NCBI RefSeq assembly: GCF_005871165.1 | Contig: NZ_SWKP01000005.1 | Location: forward strand, 558,001 to 622,000 | Source of the DNA: Maricaulis alexandrii | GTDB taxonomy: Bacteria; Pseudomonadota; Alphaproteobacteria; Caulobacterales; Maricaulaceae | Reading direction: 5' to 3' | DNA: 64,000 nt | Part shown: positions 6,201 through 25,287 of the stretch, piece after piece | Numbering within the stretch: the first letter of the stretch is position 1 | Layout: each line of letters opens with the position of its first letter | Program-made: the position numbers and the translations under genes | Notes under the pieces: generated by a model | What the model saw: only the letters and a program-made list of their open reading frames with translations | Told to the model about the DNA's origin: nothing | The model's database searches: none

Positions 6201-7363
6201 CCCTCCGCATGGCCGATCCGCCGCTCCTGCCAGACCAGCCCGTACGCTTCGGTGGAACCGCGCAAATGCCAGCCCGCCATATCGCGCCGGACGCGGCCCG
6301 CCCAGGCGAGGCGATCACCGTCCAGCCTTCCCCGGCTCAGCGCGGTGATCAGGCGGGTGCCGATTTCCGCGGACACGTCCCAGCCGGCGGTGTCCCGATC
6401 CGGCGCCGGTCGCAGGGTCAGATCAGCCCCCTCGCTGCGCGCCCGGAAATGGGTCAGGCTCCAGCCGGCCTCGCGGCCGCCTTCGGCCTGGAAATCCGCG
6501 TGCTCCACCAGGTCCTGATAGGCCTCGGGCAGCAGGCCCCAGCTGCGGATATCGGCGCGGCCCTCCGCCTGCCACTCTGTCTCCGACCAGCCCAGCGAAG
6601 CTTGCAGCAGGTCCTGACCATCCGCCTGCAGGGCCAGTGTGCCCTCGCCGCCGTTCCAGTTCCCGTCCAGGACACCGTTTGCGGCCAGTTCCCGGCCCGG
6701 CAGGCGTGCCAGTGCGGCGAGCGGACCGTCCGGAGCGGCGTGGGCGTCCAGCGAGCCGGACACGGTGTCTCCGGTCAGGGTCAGGTCGGCCAGGAGATAA
6801 TCACCCGGCGCATCCAGACGCTCGGCGCGAATGTGTCCGGAGGCGGCCTGCAGGGAGCGGATATCGGCGCGGGCCTCCACCTGCAGCCGTGCGGCAGGGC
6901 CCGCCACGCCTTCCTCCAGAACGATCTCTGAGATCTGCAAATCACCCAATTGCAGGGCGGGCAGGCCCGACCTTCCCGAGCCCGTATCCGTTTCGCGGTC
7001 CGCCCGGATCGGGCGGCGCAGAACATGGACCCGCTCCGCGATCAACCGGTCGACGATATAGGGACCGGAGGCGAGGCTGCGCGCCTGCCAGTCCAGTTCG
7101 ATCTCCTGCGCGTCCAGCCACACACCTTCGGCATCGCTCAGGGTCAGCCGTTCCAGGCGCAGGCTGGAGAGCGGGTCACCTGACAGGCCTTCCAGCGACA
7201 GGGTTTGGCCCGCCACCACGCGACCATCGAGCATGCTCATCACCGCCCAGCGGCCCGGCGCCGAGCCGGCCGCCCAGCGCAATCCGGCGCCCAGCAGGAC
7301 CAGGCTCAGCCCGATCAGGCCCAGCCAGATGGCAAAATTGATGAGGGGGGCGCGCTTGGTCAT
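3293..7363 (-). CDS. tamB: Translocation and assembly module subunit TamB
   Basis: A 1356-residue protein with one N-terminal membrane anchor (about residues 8-28) followed by a very long periplasmic region of repeated short beta strands. It ends in the conserved DUF490/TamB C-terminal domain (about residues 1000-1356). TamB-type proteins form a beta-taco groove bridging the inner and outer membranes and act with TamA in outer-membrane protein and lipid trafficking. The start codon directly abuts the stop of the upstream tamA, the usual operon order, which supports the call. The length is within the family range of 1200-1500. The antisense frames over this gene are GC-driven shadows. Confidence 0.93.
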   Translation of the reverse strand: MTKRAPLINFAIWLGLIGLSLVLLGAGLRWAAGSAPGRWAVMSMLDGRVVAGQTLSLEGLSGDPLSSLRLERLTLSDAEGVWLDAQEIELDWQARSLASGPYIVDRLIAERVHVLRRPIRADRETDTGSGRSGLPALQLGDLQISEIVLEEGVAGPAARLQVEARADIRSLQAASGHIRAERLDAPGDYLLADLTLTGDTVSGSLDAHAAPDGPLAALARLPGRELAANGVLDGNWNGGEGTLALQADGQDLLQASLGWSETEWQAEGRADIRSWGLLPEAYQDLVEHADFQAEGGREAGWSLTHFRARSEGADLTLRPAPDRDTAGWDVSAEIGTRLITALSRGRLDGDRLAWAGRVRRDMAGWHLRGSTEAYGLVWQERRIGHAEGPLDLDYARPVLMIDTQLALEGLLTGQDRLDTALADGASIALTGQWQGDRRTIDIETALLTSPAGQLTASGLYPLDGTPALTATLDLADAGLVHGELGGPVQLRVSAASLDAALVELNGQDMVWPERANGLLDGMDGRVRVSRTDAGWRFEEIDLSATGLVLDARGLWSPSSWTLDGDLAVSGRLPVERVELDGALATAFSARSDRTGLHWRSVSRSTALSAGPVRLDEPGLVLEAVRTGQALTADWQITAQRNGKPVDLSGTAGWSPQAWQVELAEGRLSPFALTGSAQSRDGELAAALDIELGDRASAVLRFTGTPAGWREGQLDADIRLNGHDFSGGYIEHARLGLSGPLSDLTIDSEVAGQLRSGFQLTAPGRLRLSETGELDLTLEPDGRWAIHPISHREPVRLTRNDDGLDLTSVLTLGSGAIRLHYRDGPDARDLALDIEGLPVDALSDIAAMPPAGGSLSGQARLAEVEESWRGDAWLEATELVALTADEMAPVRIRSDMTITPERLRAETRLTGAELETTSWLERAGPTPSLADLLGAEDAALTGQLETQGDLATIAALFLPETVILERARVEGDVDLTGQRGAPVLDGRIAVNGGQTRITSTQTTLRGIRLRARFDGNGFDLVRFEANDGRDGEISGSGQLRLPEEGPRGEASFTFSRLLATHRPDMTIQASGEADLTLDAAGLLISGATELDQLRAEPALNGAASIPELDVREINLPKNRSAQTRSALPVRLDYAVTADRNVYVSSRAFSSEWGVDLRATGPSGKPQLNGTASLVSGTAFVLNRRFTLDEGELRFDGSPGDARIDITASHTRTGFAAQARITGPVGAPRITLSSEPALPEDEILSRLLFDESVSELGAFEAAQLAAQLSGQNLLNIVGQLRDFAGIDRLDLSTDEDGNIAVTGGRRFGDDVYVEVGSSGASALSQALVEWQLTPELSLLSRISADTNAEVSLRWRRDY

Positions 7364-13912: not shown

Positions 13913-13935
13913 CGCTATTGAAAGGTGCCAATCCC

Positions 13936-15792
13936 ATGGCCCAGACCCTCAATCCCATCATCGCCAAGGTCACTGACCGCGTCCGCGAACGCAGCGCGAA
14001 AACCCGCGCCGCCTATCTCGCCCAGATGCGATCGGCCGGCGAGGAAGGCCGCAACCGGTCCGTCCTGTCCTGCGGAAACCTGGCGCATGGATTTGCCGCT
14101 TGCCCGGGCGGGGACAAGCGGGCCCTGAAGGACGGGGATTCCGCCAATGTCGGGATTGTCACCGCCTATAATGACATGCTCTCGGCACACCAGCCCTATG
14201 AACGCTTCCCGGCCCTGCTGAAATCGGCGCTTCAGGAGGTCGGGGCGGTCGGCCAGGTGGCGGGCGGTGTCCCCGCCATGTGTGACGGGGTCACCCAGGG
14301 TCAGCCGGGCATGGAGCTGTCGCTCTTCTCCCGCGATGCCATCGCCATGGCGACCGCGATCGCCCTGTCCCACAACATGTTCGATGCGGCGCTGTGCCTG
14401 GGGGTCTGCGACAAGATCGTGCCGGGCCTGATGATCGGCGCGCTGCGCTTTGGCCATCTGCCGGTGATCTTCGTGCCCGCCGGTCCGATGCGGTCCGGCC
14501 TGCCCAATCCAGAAAAGGCCAAGGTCCGCCAGCTTTATGCCGAGGGCAAGGTGGGGCGCGATGCCCTTCTGGATGCGGAGAGCAAATCCTATCACTCGCC
14601 GGGCACCTGCACCTTTTACGGCACCGCGAATTCCAACCAGATGCTGATGGAGATCATGGGTCTGCACATCCCGGGCTCGGCCTTCATCAATCCGGGTGAT
14701 CCGATGCGCGATCCGCTGACCCAGGCGGCCGCCCGCCGGGCCGCGGCGATCGTCGCGCATGGCGACAGCTATATCCCGATGGCCGAGATCGTCGACGAGA
14801 AGGCCATCATCAATGCGATCATCGGCCTGCATGCGACCGGCGGATCGACCAATCACACCATCCACCTGATTGCGATTGCCCGCGCCGCTGGCATCCTGAT
14901 CGACTGGGATGATTTCGACGATCTGGCCAAGGTCACGCCGCTCCTGTGCCGCGTCTATCCGAACGGGCCGGCCGATGTGAACCATTTCCATGCCGCGGGC
15001 GGCCTGTCTTTCGTGATCCGCGAACTGCTGGATGCCGGTCTTCTGCATGAAGATGTCCAGACCGTCATGGGTCCGGGCCTGCGCCATTATGCGACAGAGC
15101 CGCTGCAGCAGGATGGCGAGCTGGTCTGGAAGGATGCCGTGGCGGAGAGCGCCAATCTGGACGTGGTCCGTCCGGTCTCCGATCCCTTCGCGGCTGATGG
15201 CGGGCTGAAAGTGCTCGACGGCAATATCGGCCGTTCGGTGATCAAGGTCTCTGCGGTCAAGCCGGAACATCGCCAGGTTTCCGCCCCGGCCCTCGTCTTC
15301 GAGAGCCAGGATGATTTCATGGACCGGTTCAAGGCCGGCGAGCTGGAGCGCGATTTCATCGCCGTGCTGCGCTTCCAGGGACCGCGCGCCAATGGCATGC
15401 CGGAACTCCACCGCCTCACCCCGGCGCTGGGTTCGCTGCAGGACCGCGGGTTCAAGGTCGCCTTGGTCACCGATGGGCGCATGTCCGGCGCGTCCGGCAA
15501 GGTGCCCGCCGCCATCCATGTCAGTCCGGAAGCCGCGCTGGGCGGTCTGATCGACAAGGTCCAGGATGGCGACCCGGTGGTTCTTGACGCGGCGGCCGGG
15601 ACGCTGCGGGTCGAGGTGGACGGTCTGGCAGACCGGCCTTCCGCGCTGGCACCCGCCAGTGCGCAGATCGGCATGGGCCGGGAATTGTTCACCGGTTTCC
15701 GTCAGCTGGCCGGGCCGGCCGAGGAAGGCGGGCTGAGCATTCCGGGCCTCGACCAGGTCTCGCTGACAGCGCTGGAAACCCTTCCGGCTTGA
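13936..15792 (+). CDS. edd: Phosphogluconate dehydratase
   Basis: A 618-residue member of the IlvD/Edd dehydratase family that converts 6-phosphogluconate to 2-keto-3-deoxy-6-phosphogluconate. It has the family cysteine ligands for the [4Fe-4S] cluster (in [13 protein letters not shown] and in [10 protein letters not shown]) and the Edd-specific [14 protein letters not shown] and [17 protein letters not shown] segments. The length matches Edd rather than IlvD. The ATG at 13936 (MAQTLN) is preferred over the in-frame TTG at 13918 because AAAGGTG lies 8-10 bases ahead of it. It is the third gene of zwf-pgl-edd. Confidence 0.95.
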
Positions 15793-15852
15793 TTGACCTC
15801 AATTCGCCATGAATGCTCGGCAGTCTGAACCGATCGGTTTCCGGAGTGTTCC

Positions 15853-16707
15853 ATGCTGCGCCTGTCACAATCGCTGAAATGTCTCGGCCTGGGAGCCGTG
15901 CCGCTGGCGCTGGTCCTCGTCTCGCCTTCCCTGGCGGGCGGCGATGGGGATGAGGCGCTCCGGTCCGGACCGGCCGGGACCGAAGATGGCGCCCTGCGGG
16001 TCCGGGCGCGTTATTCCAGTTCCGTCCTGATCTTCAAGGTGGGCGAGGTCGAGCTGGAGGCGGTGTTCTCCGATCATGAATACAGCGCCCGCAGCACGGT
16101 GGGCGCTGCCGGTCTGGCGGCCTTGTTCACGGATTTCGACATCCAGGCGCAAGTCGCCGGTGAGCGCTCCCCGTCCGGCGTGCAGCCCCGCGAATACGCC
16201 CATGTCGAACGCACGGGCGACAAGGTCCGCTCGGTCACGGTCAGCTTTGATGACCAGGTGGCCGAGTCCCGCGCCGAACCGCCCTTCGGCTCCTGGGGGC
16301 AGCCGCCGGCCAGTGCCGCCGAACGCACCGGTGTGCTCGACCCGATGACCGCCTTCTTTGCCCTCTCCGACGCCCTGGCAGCCTCGCCGGGCGAGACCTG
16401 CAGCGGCCGGATTCCGGTCTTTGACGGCAAGCAGCGCTATGACCTCCGGCTGGAGGATGCCGGCCTGTCCCGCATCCGCACCCGTGCCTGGCAGGGCGAA
16501 GCCCGGGTCTGCGAAGCCTATTACGAACCCATTTCCGGCTATGATCCGGAAGACTATCCCTCGGAGTCGGAATTGCGGCATCCGCTGACGATCTGGCTGG
16601 CCGCCTTCCCGGACAGTGATATCCATCTGCCCGTTCGGCTGCATACGCGGGCCGGTTTCGGGGGCGTCACGATCGAGGCCCGGGATATACGGATCGACCG
16701 CATTTGA
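15853..16707 (+). CDS. Exported DUF3108-family protein
   Basis: A 284-residue protein with an N-terminal signal peptide (hydrophobic core LGAVPLALVLVSPSLA, cleavage near residue 28) and a body resembling DUF3108: a Y-S/Y-xx-R beta-rich start, a V-T-V strand, a DPMTAFFAL segment and a C-terminal beta strand with a V-T-I-E-A-R-D ending. DUF3108 proteins are periplasmic, and their biochemical function is not established. The gene lies 60 bases after edd on the same strand and could be read through from it. A perfect TGTGA-N6-TCACA palindrome begins 20 bases after its stop. Confidence 0.7.
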   Translation: MLRLSQSLKCLGLGAVPLALVLVSPSLAGGDGDEALRSGPAGTEDGALRVRARYSSSVLIFKVGEVELEAVFSDHEYSARSTVGAAGLAALFTDFDIQAQVAGERSPSGVQPREYAHVERTGDKVRSVTVSFDDQVAESRAEPPFGSWGQPPASAAERTGVLDPMTAFFALSDALAASPGETCSGRIPVFDGKQRYDLRLEDAGLSRIRTRAWQGEARVCEAYYEPISGYDPEDYPSESELRHPLTIWLAAFPDSDIHLPVRLHTRAGFGGVTIEARDIRIDRI

Positions 16708-17061
16708 GCTGAAATTTCAGGAAAAAGTGTGATCCGGATCACACCCTTTCGACGCACGCCAGGGTAGTTTGCGTCCGTCGCTCGCGAGCGACCCTACTCC
16801 TCCCTAGGAAGAGTTCAGGGCCGGGGAGGCGAGGCAATGCAAACCTTGCCCAATGCGAAGCCCCAACTTCGCCTTGCATTCCTTGCTTTCCCGGCATCTC
16901 TTTCTTTTCTCCCAAGTCATTGTGTTGTCGCGTGAAACCCGACCGGCGCGCGCAAACCTGTTGATAGCGCCCTGCGCAGGCGGCCGGGGGTCCCCTGTAA
17001 GGTTGCGCCGCGCCGGGGCAGGCGAGATGATGCGGCCAGGCGAACAGGCAGGGACGGATTC
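16708..17061. other. 354-base non-coding stretch ahead of the TIR gene
   Basis: No credible gene is present. The stretch holds the CRP-type palindrome at 16727-16744 and a second perfect 16-bp palindrome, GTCGCTCGCGAGCGAC, at 16777-16792, which could be an RNA hairpin or an operator. It ends with AGGGACGG, the likely ribosome-binding site of the TIR gene. I could not place a confident -10/-35 pair. Confidence 0.6.
16727..16744. promoter_or_regulatory. Perfect CRP-type operator TGTGA-N6-TCACA
   Basis: GTGTGATCCGGATCACAC is an exact 18-bp palindrome containing TGTGATCCGGATCACA, a complete match to the E. coli CRP half-sites with 6-bp spacing. It lies 334 bases before the TIR gene and about 5 kb from a Crp/Fnr-family gene whose recognition helix carries the CRP-type R-E-x-x-x-R residues. 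No T-tract follows, so a terminator is less likely. Confidence 0.6.
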
Positions 17062-19101
17062 ATGGGCGATCACGACGGGTTTCGCGCCTTCATCAGCTAC
17101 AGTCATGACGACCAGAGAGTGGCCAGCCGGATTCACAAGGCGCTGGAGACTTTCCGGGTTCCCGACCGCCTGGTGGGCCTAAAAACCCGCAAGGGTGACG
17201 TCCCCCGCAGGCTGACGCCGATCTTCCGGGACCGGGATGATCTGCCCGCGGCCGGCGATTTGTCGGAATCGGTGCGGGATGCCCTGTCGCGCTCGCAGAC
17301 CCTGATCGTGCTGTGTTCCCCCTCGGCGGCCCGCTCGCGCTGGGTGGATGCGGAAATCCGCGCCTTCCGGGAGCTCAATCCCGACGGCGACGTGCTGGCC
17401 GCGATCGTCGCCGGCGAGCCCGGGGCCGAGGCCGGTGGGCATGCGGCAGATCTGGAATGCTTTCCGCCCGCCCTGCGGGGCGAAGGTGCGGGGGCGCCGG
17501 AGCCGGTTGCGGCCGACTTTCGCCCGACCGGGGATGGCCGCCGCATCGCCCTTCTCAAACTGGTCGCGGGCCTGCTCGACCTGCGGCTGGACCAGCTGAT
17601 CCAGCGGGATCTTCAGCGCCGGCAACGCCGTGTGACGGTGATCACAGGCGGTCTCATCGCTCTGACGCTAACCATGGCGACACTGACATTGTTCGCCGTC
17701 TCGGCGCAGTCCGAGGCCGAACGGCGAAAAGCCGAGGCAGAGGACCTGATCGAGTTCATGCTGAGTGATCTGAGAACAAGACTGGAGCCGGTCGGACGGC
17801 TGGACGTGCTGGATGCCGTCGGGGCCAAGGTGATCGAGTATTATGACGGCCAGGCGGCCCATCATTTGTCGCTGGATGATCTTGGGCGCCGGGCCCGGGC
17901 CTTCCAATTGCTGGGCGAAATCGACAGCGACAAGGGCGACCTGGAGAGTGCCTACCAGCACTTCAACACCGCCTATGACGCGACCAGCCGGATCATCGCC
18001 GTCGATCCGAACCAGCCCGACCGCATCTACCAGCACGCCCAGAGCGCCTTCTGGGCCGGCTATTTCGCCTGGCGCCGCAGCGAACTGGAAACGGCAGAAT
18101 CGCGCTTCATCGAGTATCGCGACCTGTCCGAGCGTCTCCTGTCGATTGATGCGGAAAACCTGGAATGGCAGGCCGAGGCCGCCTACGCCCACTCCAATCT
18201 GGGCACGCTCTACATCAGCCAGGACCGCCTGGAACTCGCCCAAACCGAGATGCAGCAGGCGCTGGAGCGCTTTCTGGTGATCGCCCAGGCGCCGGATGCG
18301 TCTGAACAGGCCTGGATCGATGTGGCCGACGCCTATGGCTGGATCGCCTTTGTGTCCGAGCCGACGGATGGCCGCGAGGCGGCCATGGCTGCGATCCTTG
18401 ACCAGATCGACGTCTATGAAACCCAGCTTTCCGATGCGGACAATTGGAGCGTTCGGCGCAGCGCCATGGCGGCCGAGTACGCGCTGGCCCGCCTCTACAT
18501 CTCTGAAGGGGTCGATAGCGAGCCGGAAGACGTGGCCGCCGCGCTCGATCTTCTGCGAACCGCCTCCTTTGAGGCGGATGCGCTGATCCGCCACGAGCCG
18601 GCCAATGTGGAATGGCGCCTTCTGGGCATTCGCCAGCGCATCTGGCTGGCCGAGGCCAATCTGCTCGCGGACAATATCGATGCAGCCCGGCAGGCCTATC
18701 TCGACGCCACATCATTCATGGCGCACGCCTCTTGGGCTGATGTTGAAGGGCAGCGTTATGAAGATACGCGCCTTCATGCCTCGCTGATCGAGGCCCGCCT
18801 GTTCATCGCGATGGGGGATCTGGACTCCGCGAGCCTGTCCCTGGCCCATCTTCTGACCAGTCTGCAGCAGGTCGAGGATTGGTCGTCCCGCCTGTCCAAG
18901 GGCGCCTATCTTTACGCCGCAACCACCAACAGCTTGGCCGATCTGGTCGAAAGACGGGGTGATCCGGCGGAAGCGGCCCGTATCCGGGCCAGCATGGTGC
19001 ATCGTTTGTCGCCGCTCCGGGAGAGATTGCCGATCGATGCGCGGGCCGAGCTGCGGCGGGCTGAAGCCCGCCTGGGGGCTGAACGGATGAGCGCTGAATA
19101 G
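17062..19101 (+). CDS. TIR-domain membrane protein with C-terminal TPR-like repeats
   Basis: A 679-residue protein in three parts. Residues 1-130 form a TIR domain: FRAFISYSHDD opens it, FRDRDDLPAA forms the BB-like loop and SRWVDAEI carries the WxxxE motif (W94, E98), the usual NADase glutamate. Residues ~191-213 form one membrane helix after a run of arginines, so the TIR domain should be cytoplasmic. From ~225 on, alpha-helical TPR-like repeats extend to the end (EYYDGQ..., AFQLLGEIDSDKGDLESA..., SNLGTLYISQDRLELA...), probably periplasmic. Bacterial TIR domains can be NAD+ hydrolases, cyclic ADP-ribose synthases or scaffolds. A second CRP-type site lies inside the gene. It heads a cluster with a small protein and a cyclase-like protein. 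Confidence 0.85.
   Translation: MGDHDGFRAFISYSHDDQRVASRIHKALETFRVPDRLVGLKTRKGDVPRRLTPIFRDRDDLPAAGDLSESVRDALSRSQTLIVLCSPSAARSRWVDAEIRAFRELNPDGDVLAAIVAGEPGAEAGGHAADLECFPPALRGEGAGAPEPVAADFRPTGDGRRIALLKLVAGLLDLRLDQLIQRDLQRRQRRVTVITGGLIALTLTMATLTLFAVSAQSEAERRKAEAEDLIEFMLSDLRTRLEPVGRLDVLDAVGAKVIEYYDGQAAHHLSLDDLGRRARAFQLLGEIDSDKGDLESAYQHFNTAYDATSRIIAVDPNQPDRIYQHAQSAFWAGYFAWRRSELETAESRFIEYRDLSERLLSIDAENLEWQAEAAYAHSNLGTLYISQDRLELAQTEMQQALERFLVIAQAPDASEQAWIDVADAYGWIAFVSEPTDGREAAMAAILDQIDVYETQLSDADNWSVRRSAMAAEYALARLYISEGVDSEPEDVAAALDLLRTASFEADALIRHEPANVEWRLLGIRQRIWLAEANLLADNIDAARQAYLDATSFMAHASWADVEGQRYEDTRLHASLIEARLFIAMGDLDSASLSLAHLLTSLQQVEDWSSRLSKGAYLYAATTNSLADLVERRGDPAEAARIRASMVHRLSPLRERLPIDARAELRRAEARLGAERMSAE
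17631..17646. promoter_or_regulatory. Second TGTGA-N6-TCACA site, inside the TIR gene
   Basis: TGTGACGGTGATCACA matches both CRP half-sites with exact 6-bp spacing, about 900 bases after the first site and within codons for the residues just before the membrane helix. It may be a chance result of the codons for VTVIT. Its pairing with the upstream site in the same locus is what makes it notable. I found no third copy in the window. Confidence 0.4.
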
Positions 19102-19113
19102 CGCGTGTTTTGC

Positions 19114-19136
19114 GCCGGCCCGGATGGCGGGCCGGC
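19114..19136 (+). terminator. Hairpin after the TIR gene
   Basis: An 8-bp perfect stem GCCGGCCC/GGGCCGGC with a 7-base loop lies 13 bases after the TIR stop, followed by TTGTT. It could be a weak terminator or attenuator, reducing expression of the following small gene relative to the TIR gene. Confidence 0.45.
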
Positions 19137-19163
19137 TTGTTGGGGGCAAACAGGGGGAAATCC

Positions 19164-19769
19164 ATGCCTGGAATTGATGCTCAATCCTTTGACGGAACGA
19201 TTGTTCAAACCGAGCTTGAAGCCGATTGCGGATTCACGCCGGAGGTGACCCAGCTGGGCCTGGTCGCCCAGGCGACCGACGGCTTCGTCGTGGTGCACGG
19301 CAGTGACGCCAACCGGGACACGTTCTCGGATGCGGACCTTTCCGCGATTTTCGTGACCTTTGCCGAGACGGTTTCGGAATATCCCGGGGCCGATTCGTCC
19401 ACTTTGCGGACGGCGGTGCAGCAGGCCCTCTCCGGCCAATGGACGCCGTGCAACATGGTTGCAGGCTGTCCTTTCGATGAGGAAGTGACCGCGCCGAGCC
19501 GTCTGATCTTCCACGTTCACGTTCCCGGTTGGGGCTTCGAGCCGGCCCGGATCAAGTTCAAGACGGACTTGCCGTCTGGCGAGTTCTGCGGCCTGAAATG
19601 GCTCACGCTGAATGGTTCGACCTGCGCGCCTTACAGCTTTGAGCTTGGGGCCCAGTGCGTCACACAGGGTTCGTATGAGTACGCGCTCTACATTCGCGCG
19701 TCCCAGAGCGCGGGAAGCCAGCTCACCCGTGTGATCATCGATCCGAAAATCGAAGTCATTCCGAACTAA
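19164..19769 (+). CDS. Uncharacterised protein in the TIR/cyclase cluster
   Basis: I do not recognise this 201-residue protein. It has no signal peptide or membrane helix, is acidic, and looks beta-rich in its C-terminal half (LIFHVHVPGWGF, KWLTLNG, YEYALYIRASQ, RVIIDPKIEVIPN). There are several cysteines (C22, two near residues 96-101, then in the FCGL, CAPY and QCVT segments), so disulfides or metal binding are possible. The DPKIEV ending vaguely recalls PixA/AidA-type inclusion proteins, but not enough to assign. The ATG at 19164 was chosen for the AGGGGGA 6 bases upstream. It sits between the TIR gene and the cyclase-like gene on the same strand. Confidence 0.7.
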   Translation: MPGIDAQSFDGTIVQTELEADCGFTPEVTQLGLVAQATDGFVVVHGSDANRDTFSDADLSAIFVTFAETVSEYPGADSSTLRTAVQQALSGQWTPCNMVAGCPFDEEVTAPSRLIFHVHVPGWGFEPARIKFKTDLPSGEFCGLKWLTLNGSTCAPYSFELGAQCVTQGSYEYALYIRASQSAGSQLTRVIIDPKIEVIPN

Positions 19770-19813
19770 CCCTGATAGACTCTCCACCTGACCGGGGTGG
19801 TGGAAGGGTGTTC

Positions 19814-21655
19814 ATGGGTCAGCGCGAGAGCATTGCCAAACGCTTCAAGCGGGGGGATCTCGCCCGTGCGTACGACCTGTGCATGGAAGCCCTGCGCAGC
19901 AATCCCGATGATCTCTGGCTCCGGCACCGGGCGGTTCTCTGTCTGATCCGCTCCGGTGCCCTGGAGCGGGCGCAGGCCGATTACGAGCGCTTTCGTCTGT
20001 CCGAAGCCCGGCATGATGAAGACTGCCGGGCCCTTGGGGCCCGCCTGCTCAAGGCGGTGGCCCTGGAATCCGATGCCTCGCGCTTTGCCGGCCGCGCCCG
20101 GGAGGCTGCCCGCACCTATGCGGAGATCTTTCAGGAAACCGGGGGTCACTACCCCGGCATCAATGCCGCCACCATGTACCGGCTGGGCGGCGAGGCCGAT
20201 CTGTCCAGGCGCCTCGCGCGCCGCGTTCTGGAAGCGTGTCAGGAAGACCTGCCGGATGAGCCGGAGGACGCCTACTACCAGTGCGCTTCGGAGGCGGAAG
20301 CCTATCTTCTTCTTGGTGAATTGGGCGCGGCCAATCTGGCGCTGCGCCGGGCGATCGCCCAGGACCGGGACAATTTCATCGCCCATGCGACCACGCTGCG
20401 CCAATTGCGGCTGGTCTCCCGGACACTGGAGCTTCCGGAAGCCTGGCTGACCGGGCTGGAGCCGCCGCGCCCGGCGCATTATGCCGGTCATATCTTCGAA
20501 CAAGCGGACCCGGATCATCCGGAGCTTGCCCGGCGCGAGAGCCGTTTGCGGCAGGCCGTGGCGGACGTTATGGCAGGCCAGAATATCGGCTCTCTCTACG
20601 GAGCCATGGCCGCCGGTTCCGACATCCTGTTTGCCGAAGCCGCGCTGGGGGCCGGCAAGCCCCTCACCGTCGTGCTTCCGGTCCCGGTTTCGGTCTTCAT
20701 CGACACGTCGGTGCGGCCTTTCGGCCAGAACTGGGTGCGGCGCTGTGAGGACTGTCTGGAGCGGGCCACCGACATTGTCGAAGTGACGTCCGACCGGCAA
20801 TTGATGTCCCAGCTCAGCCTCAATCACGCCAGTTCGGTGGCGATGGGGCTCAGCCGGATCCGGGCCGATGTGCTCGGCTCCCGACCGATCCAGCTACTGA
20901 TCCGGGATGACCAGGTCCGGACGGATGCGGCCTATGGTACCTATCGCGATGCTGCGGCCTGGGCGGAGACCGGCGCGGCCCAATGCATCATTCCCTTCCG
21001 CCGCGACGGCGCGCCGGGCGCGACCTCCGAACTGCCAGTGCCCCCGGCCCGGGCCGGGTTCGAGCCGGCGCTTCGCGCCATGCTTTTTCTGGATGTGCGT
21101 GGTTCATCAACGGTGCCGGATGACCGCATTCCCGACTTTGTCCGCCATGTGCTCGGCCAGCTGGCCGAAGCCTGTGACGCGCTGGATCCGGCTCCCGTCT
21201 ACGCCGATAGCTGGGGAGACGGTCTGTTCCTGACCTTCTCGACCGTTGCCGACGCCGCCCATGCGGCGACCCGTCTACAGCAGGTTTTCAGCCGGATCGA
21301 TCTGGCCGCGCTCAATCTTCCACCGACGCTCGGACTGCGCATCGCCGGGCATTGCGGGCCGGTGCATGAGGGACAGGACCCGATCCAGCACCGCAAGGCG
21401 CCGTTTGGCGCCCAGGTGGCGATCGCCTCACGGATCGAGTCCGTGACAGTGCCCGGGACGATTTTTGTCAGCGAGATTTTTGCGGCACGCCTCGCCATGT
21501 CGGCTCAGCCGGGCCTGCGCTGTGAATATGTCGGTCTGACCGAAATTGATGCCTATCTGCCGGACATGCCGCTCTATGCCTTGCGGGCGGTGGCACCGGA
21601 TTCCCTGGAAGCGCAGAACCGGCGCCTGTCAGCTCGCACTGAGCATCCGGTTTAG
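19814..21655 (+). CDS. TPR / SLOG-like / class III nucleotide cyclase-like signalling protein
   Basis: A 613-residue soluble protein. Residues 1-210 are TPR-like helices. Residues ~222-330 form a Rossmannoid segment resembling SLOG/DUF4071-type nucleotide-sensor domains (AGHIFEQ, GSLYGAMAAGSDILFAEAAL, LTVVLPV). Residues ~420-600 form a class III cyclase homology domain with both metal aspartates (D427 in FLDVRGSS, D469 in WGDGLFLTF) and the catalytic arginine (R540). The transition-state asparagine position is alanine (A536) and the purine-selecting lysine position is aspartate (D465), so the product is uncertain or the domain may be inactive. The ATG at 19814 follows GGAAGGG. Its last 27 bases overlap the convergent Crp/Fnr gene. 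Confidence 0.75.
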   Translation: MGQRESIAKRFKRGDLARAYDLCMEALRSNPDDLWLRHRAVLCLIRSGALERAQADYERFRLSEARHDEDCRALGARLLKAVALESDASRFAGRAREAARTYAEIFQETGGHYPGINAATMYRLGGEADLSRRLARRVLEACQEDLPDEPEDAYYQCASEAEAYLLLGELGAANLALRRAIAQDRDNFIAHATTLRQLRLVSRTLELPEAWLTGLEPPRPAHYAGHIFEQADPDHPELARRESRLRQAVADVMAGQNIGSLYGAMAAGSDILFAEAALGAGKPLTVVLPVPVSVFIDTSVRPFGQNWVRRCEDCLERATDIVEVTSDRQLMSQLSLNHASSVAMGLSRIRADVLGSRPIQLLIRDDQVRTDAAYGTYRDAAAWAETGAAQCIIPFRRDGAPGATSELPVPPARAGFEPALRAMLFLDVRGSSTVPDDRIPDFVRHVLGQLAEACDALDPAPVYADSWGDGLFLTFSTVADAAHAATRLQQVFSRIDLAALNLPPTLGLRIAGHCGPVHEGQDPIQHRKAPFGAQVAIASRIESVTVPGTIFVSEIFAARLAMSAQPGLRCEYVGLTEIDAYLPDMPLYALRAVAPDSLEAQNRRLSARTEHPV

Positions 21656-22312
21656 CAGGTCCGGGTCGACCAGTTCGAAGGCGTCATCCGAGCGCCGCAA
21701 CAGGCCGCGCCGTTCCAGATCATTGACGGTCCGGGACGTGGTCTCCCGCGTCGTGTTCACTCGGCGGGCCAGTTCGGTCATGGAGGGCGCGCGGCGGATC
21801 GTCCGCCGGGTCGTGTCCTCGACAGAGGGTTCCGACATCCGCAGGAGCTCGGCATAGATCCGGCCCGGCGCCGACAGGGCCGACAATTCGAACATGCGCT
21901 GGGTTGTGTTGTGGATCCGGTTGGCCAGGATCTTCGACAGGGCCACGCCGATCTCGCCATGCTCCCGCATCAGGGCGAAGAAATTGTCGCCGTTCAGCAC
22001 GGCCAGCACACAATCGGTTTCTGCGACGATTTCCGAGGTGCGCGGCTTGCCGGTCAGCGCGGCCATCTCGCCGAAGACCGTTCCGGCGCCGAACCAGTCC
22101 AGCCAGATTTCCTGACCATTCTCCGACAGCAGGACCACCCGGACCGAGCCCTCCAGCAGCAGGTAGACATGATCATCCTGCTCGTCCTGGGAAATGATGG
22201 TGGTAGCGGCCTTCACGAAGCGCCGGTCGGCGGTCTCGACCAGGGCTTGACGGGCTTCGCCATCCAGAATGTCCAGGGCATCAAGGGCCATGCGCCAAGC
22301 TTCGTCCCGCAT
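21629..22312 (-). CDS. Crp/Fnr-family transcriptional regulator
   Basis: A 227-residue regulator with an N-terminal cyclic-nucleotide-binding beta-roll and a C-terminal winged helix. The phosphate-binding cassette FGEMAALTGKPRTS keeps the glycine-glutamate pair (G81, E82) and the arginine (R91), so it could bind a cyclic nucleotide. The residue after the arginine is threonine, as in many cGMP-binding sites. The recognition helix TTRETTSRTV carries R189-E190 and R194, the CRP R-E-x-x-x-R pattern that reads TGTGA. There is no N-terminal cysteine cluster, so it is not an Fnr oxygen sensor. The ATG at 22312 with AAGGA upstream gives normal family length. It converges on the cyclase-like gene with a 27-base overlap. 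Confidence 0.87.
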   Translation of the reverse strand: MRDEAWRMALDALDILDGEARQALVETADRRFVKAATTIISQDEQDDHVYLLLEGSVRVVLLSENGQEIWLDWFGAGTVFGEMAALTGKPRTSEIVAETDCVLAVLNGDNFFALMREHGEIGVALSKILANRIHNTTQRMFELSALSAPGRIYAELLRMSEPSVEDTTRRTIRRAPSMTELARRVNTTRETTSRTVNDLERRGLLRRSDDAFELVDPDLLNRMLSAS

Positions 22313-22629: not shown

Positions 22630-25287
22630 ATGCGGGCATGGGTGATGGCGGCAGTGACCGCCTTTGCGGGACTGACGGGCGCGATGGCACAATCCTCGCC
22701 GTTCGACACGCAATATGATCCGGCCATTCCGAGCGCCATTGCGACGCTGGGCTATGAGTTCGGTGAGGAAATCACGCCGCCGGAACAGGCGGTCGACTAT
22801 CTCTACACCCTGGAAAACGCGGCACCGGACCGGATGCGCGTCGTGGAATATGCGCGCTCCTGGGAAGGCCGGCCGCTGGTCTATGCGCTGATCGCCAGTC
22901 CGGACGTGATGGGCCGGCTTGATGAGATCCAGGCGGATTTGCAGCAATTGGCCAATCCGCAGGGCCTGTCTGCGGACGCGCGTGACGCCCTGGTCGCGGA
23001 CCTGCCCGCCGTGGTTTGGCTGTCCTATGGCGTGCACGGGGACGAGATCTCCTCCACCGATGCCGGGATCCGCACAGCCTATCATCTTCTGGCGGCGCAG
23101 GGCGATCCGGTTGTCGACACGATTTTCGAGAATACGATTGTCGTGATCGACCCGACTCAGAACCCTGATGGCCGCAATCGCTTTATCCAGTCGTTTACGG
23201 CGGCCCGCGGGCTTGAGCCGAGCGAGGACCGCTTCACCGCCGAGCATGACCAGCCCTGGCCGGGCGGTCGCTACAACCACTATCTGTTCGACCTGAACCG
23301 GGACTGGTTCGCGCGGACCCAGCCGGAAACACGCGGCCGCACGCAAGCCATCCTGGACTGGCGCCCGGTTGTGGTGGTGGATGCCCATGAAATGGGCGGC
23401 GACAGCTATTACTTCTTCGCGCCGTCGGCAGAGCCCTTCAATCCGAACATCCTGTCCAGCCAGCGGAATGCCCAGGACCTGATCGGGCGCAATCACAGCC
23501 GCTATTTCGATGCGCTGGGCTATCATTACTATACGCGGGAAGTCTTCGACGCCTTCTATCCGGGCTATGGCGACATGTGGCCGACCATGCAGGGTGCGGT
23601 GGCGATGACCTATGAACAGGCTTCCTCGCGGGGTCTGGCCTGGCGCCGCCGGGACGGGTCTCTGCTGACCTATGGGGATGGCGTGGACCGTCATTTCGTG
23701 GCTAGCGTGTCGACGGCCCAGGCCGTGGCCGAAAACCGTGCGCAATTCCTGCGCAATCTGATGAATTTCCGGCTCACGGCCGCCAATGGCACGGGGGAAC
23801 CCGGTGCGGTCCTGCTGGATATCGCGTCGAACCGCTGGGGGGCAGAACGTCTGGCCCGCAATCTGGCCGCCCAGGACATCGAGGTGGGTCGTGTTGCGCC
23901 GGGTGTTTCCGCGTGCGGGACCCGGTTTGAGCAGGGCGCTTTCCTGGTCGACTTCAACCAGCCGTCCGGCCGACTGGCCCGCACGCTGATGGAAGAGACG
24001 ACCGATCTGCCGGCCGACTTCATGCAAGAGCAGGAGCGCCGCCGCGCGGAGGGCCAGGGGCATCAGCTCTATGATGTGACGGCCTGGTCCCTGCCGCTGA
24101 TGAGCGATGTGACGCCGACCTATTGCCGCCGGGCTCCGTCGGTCGCGACGGATCCGGTGAATGCGGAAATGCCGATCGCCCGCGTCACCTCGGACCATTC
24201 GGCCGAATATGGCTATGCCATTCCCTGGACTGATGCCGGCCAGGCCGCCCTGGTCATGGCGCTGTTGCAGGAAGGCGTGCCCATGCGCACGACCGATCTG
24301 GCGTTCCGGGTCGGCGACCGCAATTTCCCGCGCGGCAGTGTCGTGGTGCCGCGCCATTCCGCCCCGGCGGATCTGGATGCGCTGATCACCCGTCTCTCCG
24401 CCGAGATCGGGGCGCATGTGGAAGGCCTGGAAACCAGCTGGGTGGATGAAGGCCCCAATCCGGGCTCGGACAATTTCCATGTCCTGCAGGCGCCCCAGGT
24501 GGCGATGTTGTGGGATGAGGGCGTGTCTCCCCTGTCGGCCGGTCCGACCCGGTTTGTGCTGGAGCGCCGCTATGGCATTCCGGTCGCCGTCATCCGCACG
24601 GGCACGATCAGCCGGGCCGATCTGGGCCGCTATGACGTCCTGATCATTCCGGAACAGTGGGGTCTGGATGACGCGCTGGGCGGCGGTGGCCGGACCGCGA
24701 TCCAGCGCTTTGCCCGTGAAGGCGGTGTCGTGATTGGCCTGGGCTCGGCGACGCGCTGGCTGGCGGACAGTGAGACCGGTCTGATCCCGGCCCAGCGCGA
24801 ACGCGCGGCCGACACGCCGCGTGAAGGCGGGGCCAGTACGGGTGAGGTGATTGACGGCACCGTTCTGGAAAACGCTGCCGAACTCGCCGCCCTGGAAGCG
24901 GAAGCCGGTGCGATGCCGGATTCCTCGCCGGGCGCCCTGGTCAATCTGACCGCCAATCCGGTGGCCTGGATGTCCGCGGGCTATGAAGACGGGGGCGTTG
25001 CCCTGGTCACCGGTTCGGACATTTATGCGCCGGTGGCGATGGATGATGCCGTGACGGCCCTGCGCTATGCGCCGCGGGACGAACTGCTGGCCGGGGGTTA
25101 TCTGTGGGACGAGTTCGCCGACCAGTTGGCCTACAAACCCTATCTCCTGTCCAATTCCTACGGATCGGGACAGGTCGTGGCCTTCACCCAGTCACCGACC
25201 ACCCGCGCCTATCTGGAAGGCTTGGACCTGCTCCTGCTGAATGCGGTGGTCCTGGGACCGGCCCGTTCGCGGACCTATCGCTACTAG
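22630..25287 (+). CDS. Secreted M14-family zinc metallopeptidase
   Basis: An 885-residue exported protein: a signal peptide of ~20 residues (ending GAMAQ), then a zinc carboxypeptidase domain with HGDE (H136, E139) as the first two zinc ligands. The third histidine is in VVVVDAHEMGGDSYYFF after NRDWFARTQPETR. Large alpha-proteobacterial M14 proteins of this type degrade peptides in the periplasm or outside the cell. Around residues 665-710 a glutamine-amidotransferase-like fold is visible (YDVLIIPEQWG, GGVVIGLGSATRW), as found C-terminally in this subfamily. It is monocistronic by spacing, ending close to the convergent Uup-type gene. The substrate is not predictable. Confidence 0.85.
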   Translation: MRAWVMAAVTAFAGLTGAMAQSSPFDTQYDPAIPSAIATLGYEFGEEITPPEQAVDYLYTLENAAPDRMRVVEYARSWEGRPLVYALIASPDVMGRLDEIQADLQQLANPQGLSADARDALVADLPAVVWLSYGVHGDEISSTDAGIRTAYHLLAAQGDPVVDTIFENTIVVIDPTQNPDGRNRFIQSFTAARGLEPSEDRFTAEHDQPWPGGRYNHYLFDLNRDWFARTQPETRGRTQAILDWRPVVVVDAHEMGGDSYYFFAPSAEPFNPNILSSQRNAQDLIGRNHSRYFDALGYHYYTREVFDAFYPGYGDMWPTMQGAVAMTYEQASSRGLAWRRRDGSLLTYGDGVDRHFVASVSTAQAVAENRAQFLRNLMNFRLTAANGTGEPGAVLLDIASNRWGAERLARNLAAQDIEVGRVAPGVSACGTRFEQGAFLVDFNQPSGRLARTLMEETTDLPADFMQEQERRRAEGQGHQLYDVTAWSLPLMSDVTPTYCRRAPSVATDPVNAEMPIARVTSDHSAEYGYAIPWTDAGQAALVMALLQEGVPMRTTDLAFRVGDRNFPRGSVVVPRHSAPADLDALITRLSAEIGAHVEGLETSWVDEGPNPGSDNFHVLQAPQVAMLWDEGVSPLSAGPTRFVLERRYGIPVAVIRTGTISRADLGRYDVLIIPEQWGLDDALGGGGRTAIQRFAREGGVVIGLGSATRWLADSETGLIPAQRERAADTPREGGASTGEVIDGTVLENAAELAALEAEAGAMPDSSPGALVNLTANPVAWMSAGYEDGGVALVTGSDIYAPVAMDDAVTALRYAPRDELLAGGYLWDEFADQLAYKPYLLSNSYGSGQVVAFTQSPTTRAYLEGLDLLLLNAVVLGPARSRTYRY

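Follow-up and report, generated by a model that had tools for sequence, protein, structure and literature searches.

How a TIR protein may be wired to gene control is the question raised by a locus in Maricaulis alexandrii, which was analysed within a 64,000-nucleotide stretch of DNA (the window). In the bacterial TIR signalling systems known to us, the last step is an effector by which the cell is starved or killed. At this locus the TIR gene is tied to a putative sensor cyclase and a transcription factor, in a cassette that is near-core in a free-living genus and would allow a link from TIR biology to gene control to be tested on a compact example. The first-pass annotation of this DNA had described the gene order as TIR, small protein, cyclase protein and convergent Crp, the last two overlapping by 27 bases. 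When this layout was checked on the window, every gene was found where it had been placed, and so was the overlap (Table 1).

We consider it probable that the cassette as a whole is a signalling operon that sits on the Maricaulis chromosome and is for the most part inherited vertically, in which a sensor cyclase would signal through Crp to a class II site preceding the TIR operon, a structured RNA being transcribed first. The TPR-S/SLOG-like protein would be the sensor, its C-terminal class III cyclase making a cyclic nucleotide whose receptor would be the convergently encoded Crp. Nucleotide-bound Crp would, we infer, activate transcription from the class II site, with positive feedback or a threshold switch as the outcome. 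Transcription from this promoter would first yield a structured leader or small RNA, which precedes and may control TIR expression, and the TIR-TM-TPR protein, the small Asp-Pro protein and the TPR-S/SLOG part would make up the upstream sensing or effector core. Sequence and evolution speak for this account through the linkage of the genes, the matched state of cyclase and Crp pocket, the sole cyclase and Crp detected by Pfam in the window genome, a conserved operator with class II spacing and a covarying RNA. Against it speak the few evolutionary events behind the matched state, the many cyclase-protein loci with no Crp nearby, the rarity of the operator and the lack of RNA matches outside Maricaulis, the motif sites kept in a cassette-less genome, the non-canonical substrate residues of the cyclase, and the survival of cassettes whose cyclase is degenerate.

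Table 1. Features of the cassette, numbered from the first letter of the window.
Feature	Position	Strand	Remarks
Crp-type operator TGTGATCCGGATCACA	16728..16743	.	20 bp beyond the stop codon of DUF3108
-10-like box TAGTTT, predicted	16765..16770	+	operator 21 nt before it, its centre near -41.5 (class II Crp geometry)
Predicted structured RNA element	16824..16889	+	long outer stem, 5' bulge with CUUGCCCA, inner hairpin
Inner hairpin of the RNA, GCGAAG-CCCCAA-CUUCGC	16855-16872	+	
TIR-TM-TPR protein, 679 aa	17062..19101	+	TIR at residues 10-117; TM segment by eye
Second, intragenic operator-like site TGTGACGGTGATCACA	17631..17646	.	in the TIR gene
Small protein, 219 aa, predicted beta-rich fold	19110..19769	+	ATG at 19164 gives 201 aa
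Asp-Pro, candidate autocleavage site	19740..19745	+	D193-P194 (A2 numbering); 8 residues follow Asp up to the C-terminus
TPR-S / SLOG-like / class III cyclase-like protein, 615 aa	19808..21655	+	
Rossmannoid SLOG-like domain, residues 221-397	20468..20998	+	AF2; weak hhalign alignment to LOG
Candidate class III cyclase domain, residues 418-594	21059..21589	+	metal Asp 429, 471; Arg 542
Convergent overlap, cyclase protein and Crp	21629-21655		27 bases
Crp-family regulator, 227 aa	21629..22312	-	intact phosphate-binding cassette; R-E-T-T-S-R recognition helix

All four genes occur together in 16 of the 18 other Maricaulis genomes, the remaining two being one whose cassette ends at a contig edge and one (G011) that lacks it; 17 of these genomes carry the cyclase protein together with TIR and the small protein, and 16 have Crp adjacent. 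The cassette is single copy in the genus and its upstream flank is largely fixed. In cassette-less G011, another Crp and a cyclase lie slightly downstream of DUF3108. Outside Maricaulis, cassettes were found in Kordiimonas, Hellea and Robiginitomaculum, and those of Caulobacter have Crp divergent from TIR. A trypsin-like protease is added in some cassettes, that of L054 being matched solely by a model built from this protein and two others. The conserved unit expected from the first-pass annotation holds in Maricaulis. Among the 80 best cyclase-protein loci in the genome contigs searched, Crp lies within 6 kb in 35 and is absent from that distance in 45, so that in distant taxa the cyclase protein occurs separately. 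Among the papers listed in searches of the open-access literature (including PMC7159879, PMC8195603 and PMC11224242), no description of the cassette was found, and a TIR protein may be connected to gene control here in a manner that is undescribed.

The cyclase protein matches TPR-S (PF20308, 37.1 bits for a cut-off of 27.6), as do all 24 members of its family at E<=1, and Guanylate_cyc (24.6 bits, cut-off 21.9); the top 50 Foldseek matches listed are all cyclases. The metal-binding D429 and D471 are kept in 37 of 37 intact rows, and from its sequence this candidate class III enzyme should make a cyclic nucleotide. The Lys+Asp substrate pair of adenylyl cyclases is absent from the intact rows: at position 467, 15 Maricaulis rows have D and the 22 others N (9), E (12) or K (1), and position 531 is A, S, T, V, G or N, never D. 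The usual Asn is also absent, Ma1120 likewise aligning Ala at this position. As both the substrate pair and the Asn are missing, activity and product are regarded as candidates only, and the question arises of which nucleotide is made by a cyclase without the usual substrate residues whose partner has a CRP-like pocket.

This partner, Crp, matches cNMP_binding (PF00027, 82.1 bits) and HTH_Crp_2 (PF13545, 44.8 bits), and its phosphate-binding cassette reads FGEMAALTGKPRTSE; it combines the CNBD and the Crp HTH by which a cAMP receptor protein is recognised, and its recognition helix is of the CRP type R-E-x-x-x-R, as first annotated. A longer GTG-start frame, to 22690, is also present. Class III cyclase family PF00211 has a single match in 18 of 19 Maricaulis genomes, which is the cassette cyclase in 17 of them, and PF00027 has two matches in the window genome (G000), the cassette Crp and a 587-residue open frame. 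The cassette Crp thus appears to be the sole Crp-sized cNMP-binding protein of this genome and the cassette cyclase its sole class III cyclase.

The two proteins are also found in a matched state. Among 52 cyclase/Crp pairs, taken from loci with Crp within 6 kb after dropping the duplicates L110, L169, L182, L184 and L185, an intact cyclase always accompanies an intact nucleotide pocket with both E and R (37/37), whereas a degenerate cyclase always accompanies a destroyed pocket with neither (15/15); degenerate here means that the two metal Asp are not both present, and in a gappy alignment the first of them is still D in 6 of the 15. On the tree this match amounts to one or two evolutionary events (one independent pair) and therefore carries no weight as evolution that recurred. 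All 52 pairs retain R-E and the final R in the recognition helix. The residue equivalent to CRP S128 is Thr or Ser in 37/37 intact pairs and is not diagnostic, since the same holds for 11 of the 15 lost ones. Together with the sole cyclase and the sole Crp-sized protein, these counts support the coupling of cyclase and Crp that had been supposed at first. Cassettes with a degenerate cyclase persist, with the TIR and the TPR-S/SLOG part still together (15 of 52 pairs), which shows that the cyclase is dispensable for the core. They offer a case of a second-messenger link lost or swapped, with the making domain and the reading pocket in matched state.

Both perfect TGTGA-N6-TCACA sites that had been pointed out in this DNA are present. 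At one mismatch or fewer, the window holds 3 such sites for 0.88 expected, and 3 of 100 shuffles reach 3. This raw count is weak evidence, and the real evidence is the conservation of the site at 16728-16743, which fits YGTGAYNNNNRTCACR in 18/18 Maricaulis cassettes and forms a conserved block in the 17-row intergenic alignment. No operator of this type was found in the 9-kb locus of G011. The TA of a -10-like box follows the operator by 21 nt in 15 of the 18 Maricaulis loci and by 22 nt in the other 3, and from this sequence we take the box to be a putative promoter element. In Maricaulis cassettes the operator precedes the TIR start by about 230-470 bp (for L047, L048 and L049 the TIR start was placed about 20 nt off), so that it probably drives an RNA or leader first. 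Crp had been thought to act at the TIR promoter. A conserved site does stand upstream of the operon; because the two are set apart by a long leader, in which a covarying RNA and another promoter-like block were found, the site is not simply that of the TIR promoter. The block (TTGCRC...AATGAT, near the TIR start codon) was read by eye from the alignment. Beyond Maricaulis, a Crp-type site precedes TIR in 5 of 33 scanned cassettes, at 52-364 bp, two of the five having a mismatch count no better than shuffles (L082, L101 and L173 have no recognisable TIR start).

A possible but less convincing alternative is that Maricaulis simply has a general cAMP-CRP system, with the TIR and the small protein as a regulated or accessory operon rather than the source of the signal. 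The R-E-x-x-S-R helix, the G-E...R pocket, the operator sequence and the class II spacing all recall the bacterial cAMP-CRP system. A single cyclase and a single Crp-sized regulator in a near-core setting would fit this alternative. Each Maricaulis genome has 3-12 motif sites, the reversed pattern occurring 0-3 times, and G011, with 4 motif sites, has its other Crp and cyclase as if some such pair were wanted. However, the cassette cyclase is a locus-linked TPR-S/SLOG sensor-like enzyme with non-canonical substrate residues, tied to the TIR and the small protein across families; 2 of the 12 copies of YGTGAYNNNNRTCACR in the 3.35-Mb G000 fall within the cassette, and the latter contains a TIR and a structured leader RNA that the general system does not have.

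In our preferred reading, a transcript from the -10-like box would begin with this RNA. Double compensatory changes occur in 9 of its 16 pairs, with 28 double-change cells observed for 8.7 in the control, and 91.4% of cells are paired; shuffles give 83.9%, and sliding gives 35-49%. A model built from 17 of the 18 cassette-bearing Maricaulis genomes gives one strong copy in each of the 18, including G008, outside the model, and no match in G011; the RNA was found at none of the non-Maricaulis cassettes searched. It is not a repeated element, given its single strong copy per genome, nor an intrinsic terminator, as no consistent U-run follows the stem, nor a known family, the best Rfam match in window 16600-17100 being mir-2387 (E 1.7, 18.7 bits for a cut-off of 93). 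The element would be a case of a structured leader RNA tied to a TIR-type system. The CCCCAA loops are complementary to UUGGGG present before several TIR start codons, although not in the window itself.

A full cascade had been envisaged at first, in which an ADP-ribose-type messenger made by the TIR would be sensed by the SLOG-like domain and switch on the cyclase, Crp then inducing the TIR operon. We find this doubtful. The TIR protein matches TIR_2 (43.4 bits, cut-off 28) and ThsB_TIR (PF08937, 41.8 bits, cut-off 21.2), and its TIR domain had no match at E<=0.01 among PDB sequences. In favour of the cascade, the parts are co-inherited in Maricaulis, and the WxxxE glutamate of the TIR, already noted, is borne out in 32/32 aligned TIR rows (the window and 31 loci). 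AF2 predicts a six-strand beta-alpha Rossmannoid fold for residues 221-397, and the hhalign alignment of the profile of residues 212-405 to LOG (30 loci) covers the glycine motif and scores 24.2, while 40 shuffles reach 21.9 at most. With the LOG profile from 10/30 loci, P was 0.0072, against 0.069-0.67 for five unrelated cassette profiles. The persistence of TPR-S/SLOG and TIR where the cyclase decayed would be expected if they were the older core. On the other hand, the hhalign probability is just 6.5%, no SLOG family appears among the best 25 of 27 Pfam families at E<=1 (24 members), and the TIR could be a scaffold. The Foldseek list, being taken up by cyclases, says nothing about SLOG. Of the SLOG-like segment first described, the predicted fold stands, and the sequence lends its identity as a SLOG domain weak support.

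The small protein of the window has no Pfam match at E<=1. The top seven Foldseek matches of its predicted fold are SO1698 (PDB 3njm and others), with E from 1.8e-6 to 4.3e-4 and TM-scores of 0.59-0.68 by target and 0.40-0.45 by query. SO1698 of Shewanella is a self-cleaving Asp-Pro endopeptidase. The small protein shares with it the predicted fold and an Asp-Pro close to the C-terminus, which is invariant across 18 aligned rows; in 45 of 50 cassettes an ORF located between the TIR and cyclase genes has an Asp-Pro near its C-terminus. The small protein differs in length (201 aa against about 120), and a search for a sequence-level link found none. As the modelled fold resembles SO1698, the protein may be cleaved at this Asp-Pro. 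A distant kinship with pNTSase1 (PF20301), unmatched in the window protein, is suggested by the sequences of some relatives: 3 of 18 A2 members match at E<=5, a score of 20.9 bits was found for L051, and the small protein of the G090 cassette (L179) reaches 30 bits for a cut-off of 25.

We tentatively entertain a bolder form of our account, in which the TIR product, the Asp-Pro protein or both would be sensed by TPR-S/SLOG, with the signal passing from cyclase to Crp to operon and the RNA tuning TIR. The cassette would then be an immune-type TIR relay complete in itself and read out by a transcription factor, its messenger possibly neither cAMP nor cGMP. Sister lineages would have lost cyclase and nucleotide pocket together, their core being rewired and messenger-free.

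A phage-defence system working like Pycsar or Thoeris seems unlikely to us. Pycsar combines a PycC cyclase with a cyclic-pyrimidine effector such as PycTIR (PMC11224242). The cassette likewise has a class III-type cyclase beside genes with TIR and cyclic-nucleotide-binding domains. Of 24 cyclase family members, 4 match the PADLOC model for PycC at E<=0.01, the best with 1.7e-8; in Crp, the nucleotide-binding domain matches the PycTIR model (4.6e-17), and the TIR protein matches SAVED_TIR (1.4e-7). However, PycC does not match the window cyclase at E<=1, this cyclase carries TPR-S and a SLOG-like domain, and the CNBD is fused to a Crp HTH, on a transcription factor, and to neither a TIR nor a membrane module, the TIR protein having TIR and TPR only in the Pfam scan. 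Thoeris consists of the TIR protein ThsB and of ThsA, a SIR2-type NADase plus SLOG. A ThsB_TIR-matching gene linked to a SLOG-like protein, weakly supported as SLOG, recalls it; here a cyclase is joined to the SLOG-like domain, a Crp gene comes in addition, and neither SIR2 nor another ThsA NADase was found in the six proteins scanned (Pfam, NCBIfam). Membership of either system is rejected on gene architecture. As the first-pass annotation held, the cassette resembles both and has the gene content of neither, and by its domains is a new arrangement of known parts. TPR-S and pNTSase1, like TIR, are components named for predicted prokaryotic conflict systems; the window TPR-S and the L179 small protein pass these cut-offs, while the window small protein has no such match, and the protease added in some cassettes would also suit defence. 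Against this, a near-core, single-copy cassette with a largely fixed flank is unlike a mobile defence island.

That the convergent Crp and its sites are chance neighbours, unrelated to the cyclase or the TIR, is very improbable, and linkage and matched state lead us to reject it for Maricaulis and the lineages nearer to it: the mildly unusual site count and the 45 loci without a nearby Crp would allow it, but adjacency in 16/18 other Maricaulis genomes and in other families, the matched state and an operator in 18/18 speak against it.

The intragenic site in the TIR gene is kept with at most one mismatch in 14 of the 18 Maricaulis cassettes. Where it could be located (15 of 18 TIR genes), the Thr codon inside it is ACA in 13 of the 15 rows, against 15% of Thr codons overall.

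The first-pass annotation had read four genes here, namely TIR, a small protein, a cyclase protein and a convergent Crp gene with a 27-base cyclase/Crp overlap, and this layout is borne out (table below). The co-occurrence of the TIR, small and cyclase genes also holds: each is found in 17 of the 18 other Maricaulis genomes searched, and a Crp gene adjoins the cyclase gene in 16 of them. In one genome (G012) the contig end falls within the cyclase gene, and G011 is the sole Maricaulis genome without any cassette gene. All 16 complete Maricaulis loci mapped share the gene order TIR, small, cyclase, Crp. Upstream, edd and/or DUF3108 is found in 16 of 17 loci, the remaining locus beginning at a contig end; within the stretch taken, only two of 17 gave a match to the M14 gene.

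Positions of the cassette, its flanking genes and the RNA element in the window
Feature	Position	Remark
edd and DUF3108	13918-16707	upstream flank of cassette
Structured RNA element	16824-16889	66 nt, starts 80 nt after upstream Crp-type site; covarying stems
TIR	17062-19101	
Small protein	19110-19769	between TIR and cyclase protein
TPR-S/SLOG-like/class III cyclase protein	19808-21655	Pfam domains and AF2
Crp	21629-22312	convergent to cyclase gene
M14 peptidase	22630-25287	downstream flank

A scan of the species-genome collection returned 259 relatives of the cyclase protein; of the best 80, 35 have a Crp gene within 6 kb and 45 do not. In the search at order level, a relative at E<=1e-30 turned up in 57 of 348 genomes. 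The combination of TIR, small gene, cyclase protein and convergent Crp recurs in Kordiimonas, Hellea and Robiginitomaculum, and in the Caulobacter cassettes Crp is divergent from TIR. Ten neighbours of distant Crp-less relatives were scanned: they include a TIR gene (locus L106), an nSTAND/TPR protein (L102) and a vWA protein (L131), and several others are apparently unrelated genes. At a cassette-like locus of genome G054 (L057), TIR and an intact cyclase protein are convergent and 13 bp apart, and Crp was not found within the stretch taken. Three loci (L051:4409-6562 in Hellea, L053:5948-7891 and L054:5657-7594) carry, between TIR and the gene for TPR-S, an additional protease-like gene, which is Pfam Trypsin_2 in L051 and L053, the two checked; in all three the small-protein gene lies on the strand opposite to TIR.

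The cyclase protein was modelled by AF2 (pLDDT 88.8, pTM 0.89) with predicted TPR (residues 2-206), Rossmannoid (221-397) and cyclase (418-594) domains. Foldseek matched it to Cya2 (2w01, E 1.1e-8) and Rv1900c (1ybt, 1.5e-8), and its closest PDB sequence match is Ma1120 (E 8.2e-11), an adenylyl cyclase by its PDB titles. All 37 rows with an intact cyclase keep the metal Asp residues, and 36 of them keep Arg542; in these rows, substrate position 467 is D, N, E or K, position 531 is A, S, T, V, G or N, and the canonical adenylyl-cyclase Lys+Asp pair is absent at these two positions. The place of the usual cyclase Asn is taken by A, S, V, T or I, and Ma1120 aligns Ala there too. On the Crp side, the position that corresponds to CRP S128 holds Thr or Ser in all 37 intact pairs and also in 11 of 15 lost pairs; PMC11224242 ties Ser/Thr at this position to recognition of cAMP, and an Asn there in PycTIR to that of cUMP.

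For the middle domain, the SLOG-like segment of the earlier reading, a Rossmannoid fold is indeed predicted: the AF2 model has the expected beta-alpha order, with strand 2 followed by a conserved GALAAGSDIL-like motif. Its match to SLOG is less firm: hhalign against 30 LOG proteins puts the glycine motifs in register with a score of 24.2 (P 0.0057, probability 6.5%), and 40 column-shuffled controls reached at most 21.9. We describe this domain as SLOG-like, and do not call it SLOG.

A search for class III cyclases with PF00211 over 19 Maricaulis genomes gave exactly one match in 18 and none in G012, and in 17 genomes the sole match is the cassette cyclase. In G011 the match is another cyclase, with another Crp as its neighbour; at this locus (L064:2607-7124), two genes past DUF3108, the Crp (4864-5562) precedes the class III cyclase (5661-7124), whose PilS-like membrane match is weak. 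In the window genome, PF00027 matches twice, in the cassette Crp and in a domain of a 587-residue open frame.

We scored both cyclase metal Asp residues against the Glu and Arg of the Crp phosphate-binding cassette in 52 cyclase-Crp pairs (window included, duplicates dropped). Both sites are intact together in 37/37 and lost together in 15/15, and the R-E and final R of the Crp recognition helix are kept in 52/52. On the TPR-S/SLOG tree the lost rows need one change (one to two in bootstraps) and thus amount to one independent pair; their single grouping has a support of 25/24. The correspondence is clean, stems from one or two evolutionary events, and suggests, short of statistical proof, a coupling between cyclase and Crp. 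The Crp proteins with a destroyed nucleotide pocket and an intact CRP-type recognition helix are those of L052-L056, L124, L170-L174 and L178-L181.

The Crp-type site upstream of TIR fits YGTGAYNNNNRTCACR in 18/18 Maricaulis cassettes and stands out in the 17-row intergenic alignment. It is followed by a TA-box after 21 nt (15/18) or 22 nt (3/18), which is class II spacing. This pattern occurs 12 times in the window genome, twice within the cassette, and 3-12 times per Maricaulis genome versus 0-3 for the reversed pattern; the cassette-less G011 still has four such sites. Among 33 non-Maricaulis cassettes scanned, 28 have no Crp-type site upstream of TIR and five have one; the number of shuffles, out of 200, that reached an equal mismatch count was 0 for L050, 5 for L088, 1 for L171, 23 for L178 and 52 for L079. 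The Caulobacter cassettes, with their differing helix QREPVTR, are without such a site. The intragenic TIR site at 17631 is present with at most one mismatch in 14/18 Maricaulis cassettes. In 13 of the 15 rows where it was located, which come from related genomes and are not independent, the Thr codon of this site is ACA, an uncommon codon that makes up 15% of Thr codons with these rows counted in; this is a hint of a second operator, beyond mere coding constraint.

In the circuit of the first-pass annotation, a TIR product would act through the SLOG-like domain on the cyclase, and the cyclase through Crp on the TIR promoter. As judged from sequence evolution, the half that would lead from cyclase through Crp to the operon is supported within Maricaulis and nearer relatives; the half from TIR through SLOG to cyclase is a fair hypothesis. 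The best explanation, which we hold to be rather probable, is that the nucleotide of a sensor cyclase would be read by Crp, which would activate the TIR operon from a class II site; our confidence is slightly reduced by the absence of Crp at 45 of the 80 loci and by the motif sites in G011. TIR and TPR-S/SLOG, with a small gene between them, persist in the cassettes that lack both an intact cyclase and the nucleotide pocket, which suggests that they are an older core and the cyclic nucleotide an exchangeable link, on an unrooted tree that does not fix the direction of change. Near-core, single-copy inheritance points to a role in signalling or in stress control no less than to a mobile system of phage defence.

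The structured RNA element 5' of TIR shows double changes in 9 of 16 pairs (5.0 in shuffles, 3/500 of which reached 9) and 28 double-change cells versus 8.7 in shuffles; 91.4% of cells are paired, versus 83.9% when shuffled and 35-49% when slid, and the 19 further pair types are not above shuffles (17.1). A covariance model built from 17 loci, G008 being the only cassette-bearing Maricaulis genome outside it, finds one strong copy (E<=4.1e-7) per genome in 18/18 cassette-bearing Maricaulis, each 5' of TIR by coordinates; the next best match has E 0.03, and G011 has no strong copy. No Rfam family matched. Among 61 genomes searched the element is found only in Maricaulis; a search of 34 loci found it at no non-Maricaulis cassette, the one match, L096, duplicating a contig of G004. 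Many Maricaulis genomes have a first, shorter hairpin of the CCGCTC..GAGCGG type, with CCCCAAACUCC after it, at 16760-16823, in the stretch that separates the -10-like box from this element; base pairing would be possible between CCCCAA and the UUGGGG that precedes several TIR start codons.

The small protein of the window gave no match in Pfam, NCBIfam or PADLOC at E<=1. Its AF2 model (pLDDT 87.0) has seven Foldseek matches at E<=0.001, all to SO1698 of Shewanella, a self-cleaving protein that carries the title aspartic peptidase (lowest E 1.8e-6; TM-score 0.59-0.68 by target and 0.40-0.45 by query). Asp193-Pro194 is invariant in the 18-row alignment, and in the window protein eight residues remain between Asp193 and the C-terminal end. 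An ORF between TIR and cyclase with Asp-Pro near the C-terminus, recognised by place and motif, is found in 45 of 50 cassettes; the exceptions are the small proteins of L083, L088, L101 and L181, and L140, which has no room for a small ORF. Those of a Kordiimonas cassette (L083:9232-9894) and a related one (L088:9349-10017), both without Asp-Pro, have no Pfam match. Some relatives of the small protein match pNTSase1, with 20.9 bits in L051 and 30 bits in L179 (cut-off 25).
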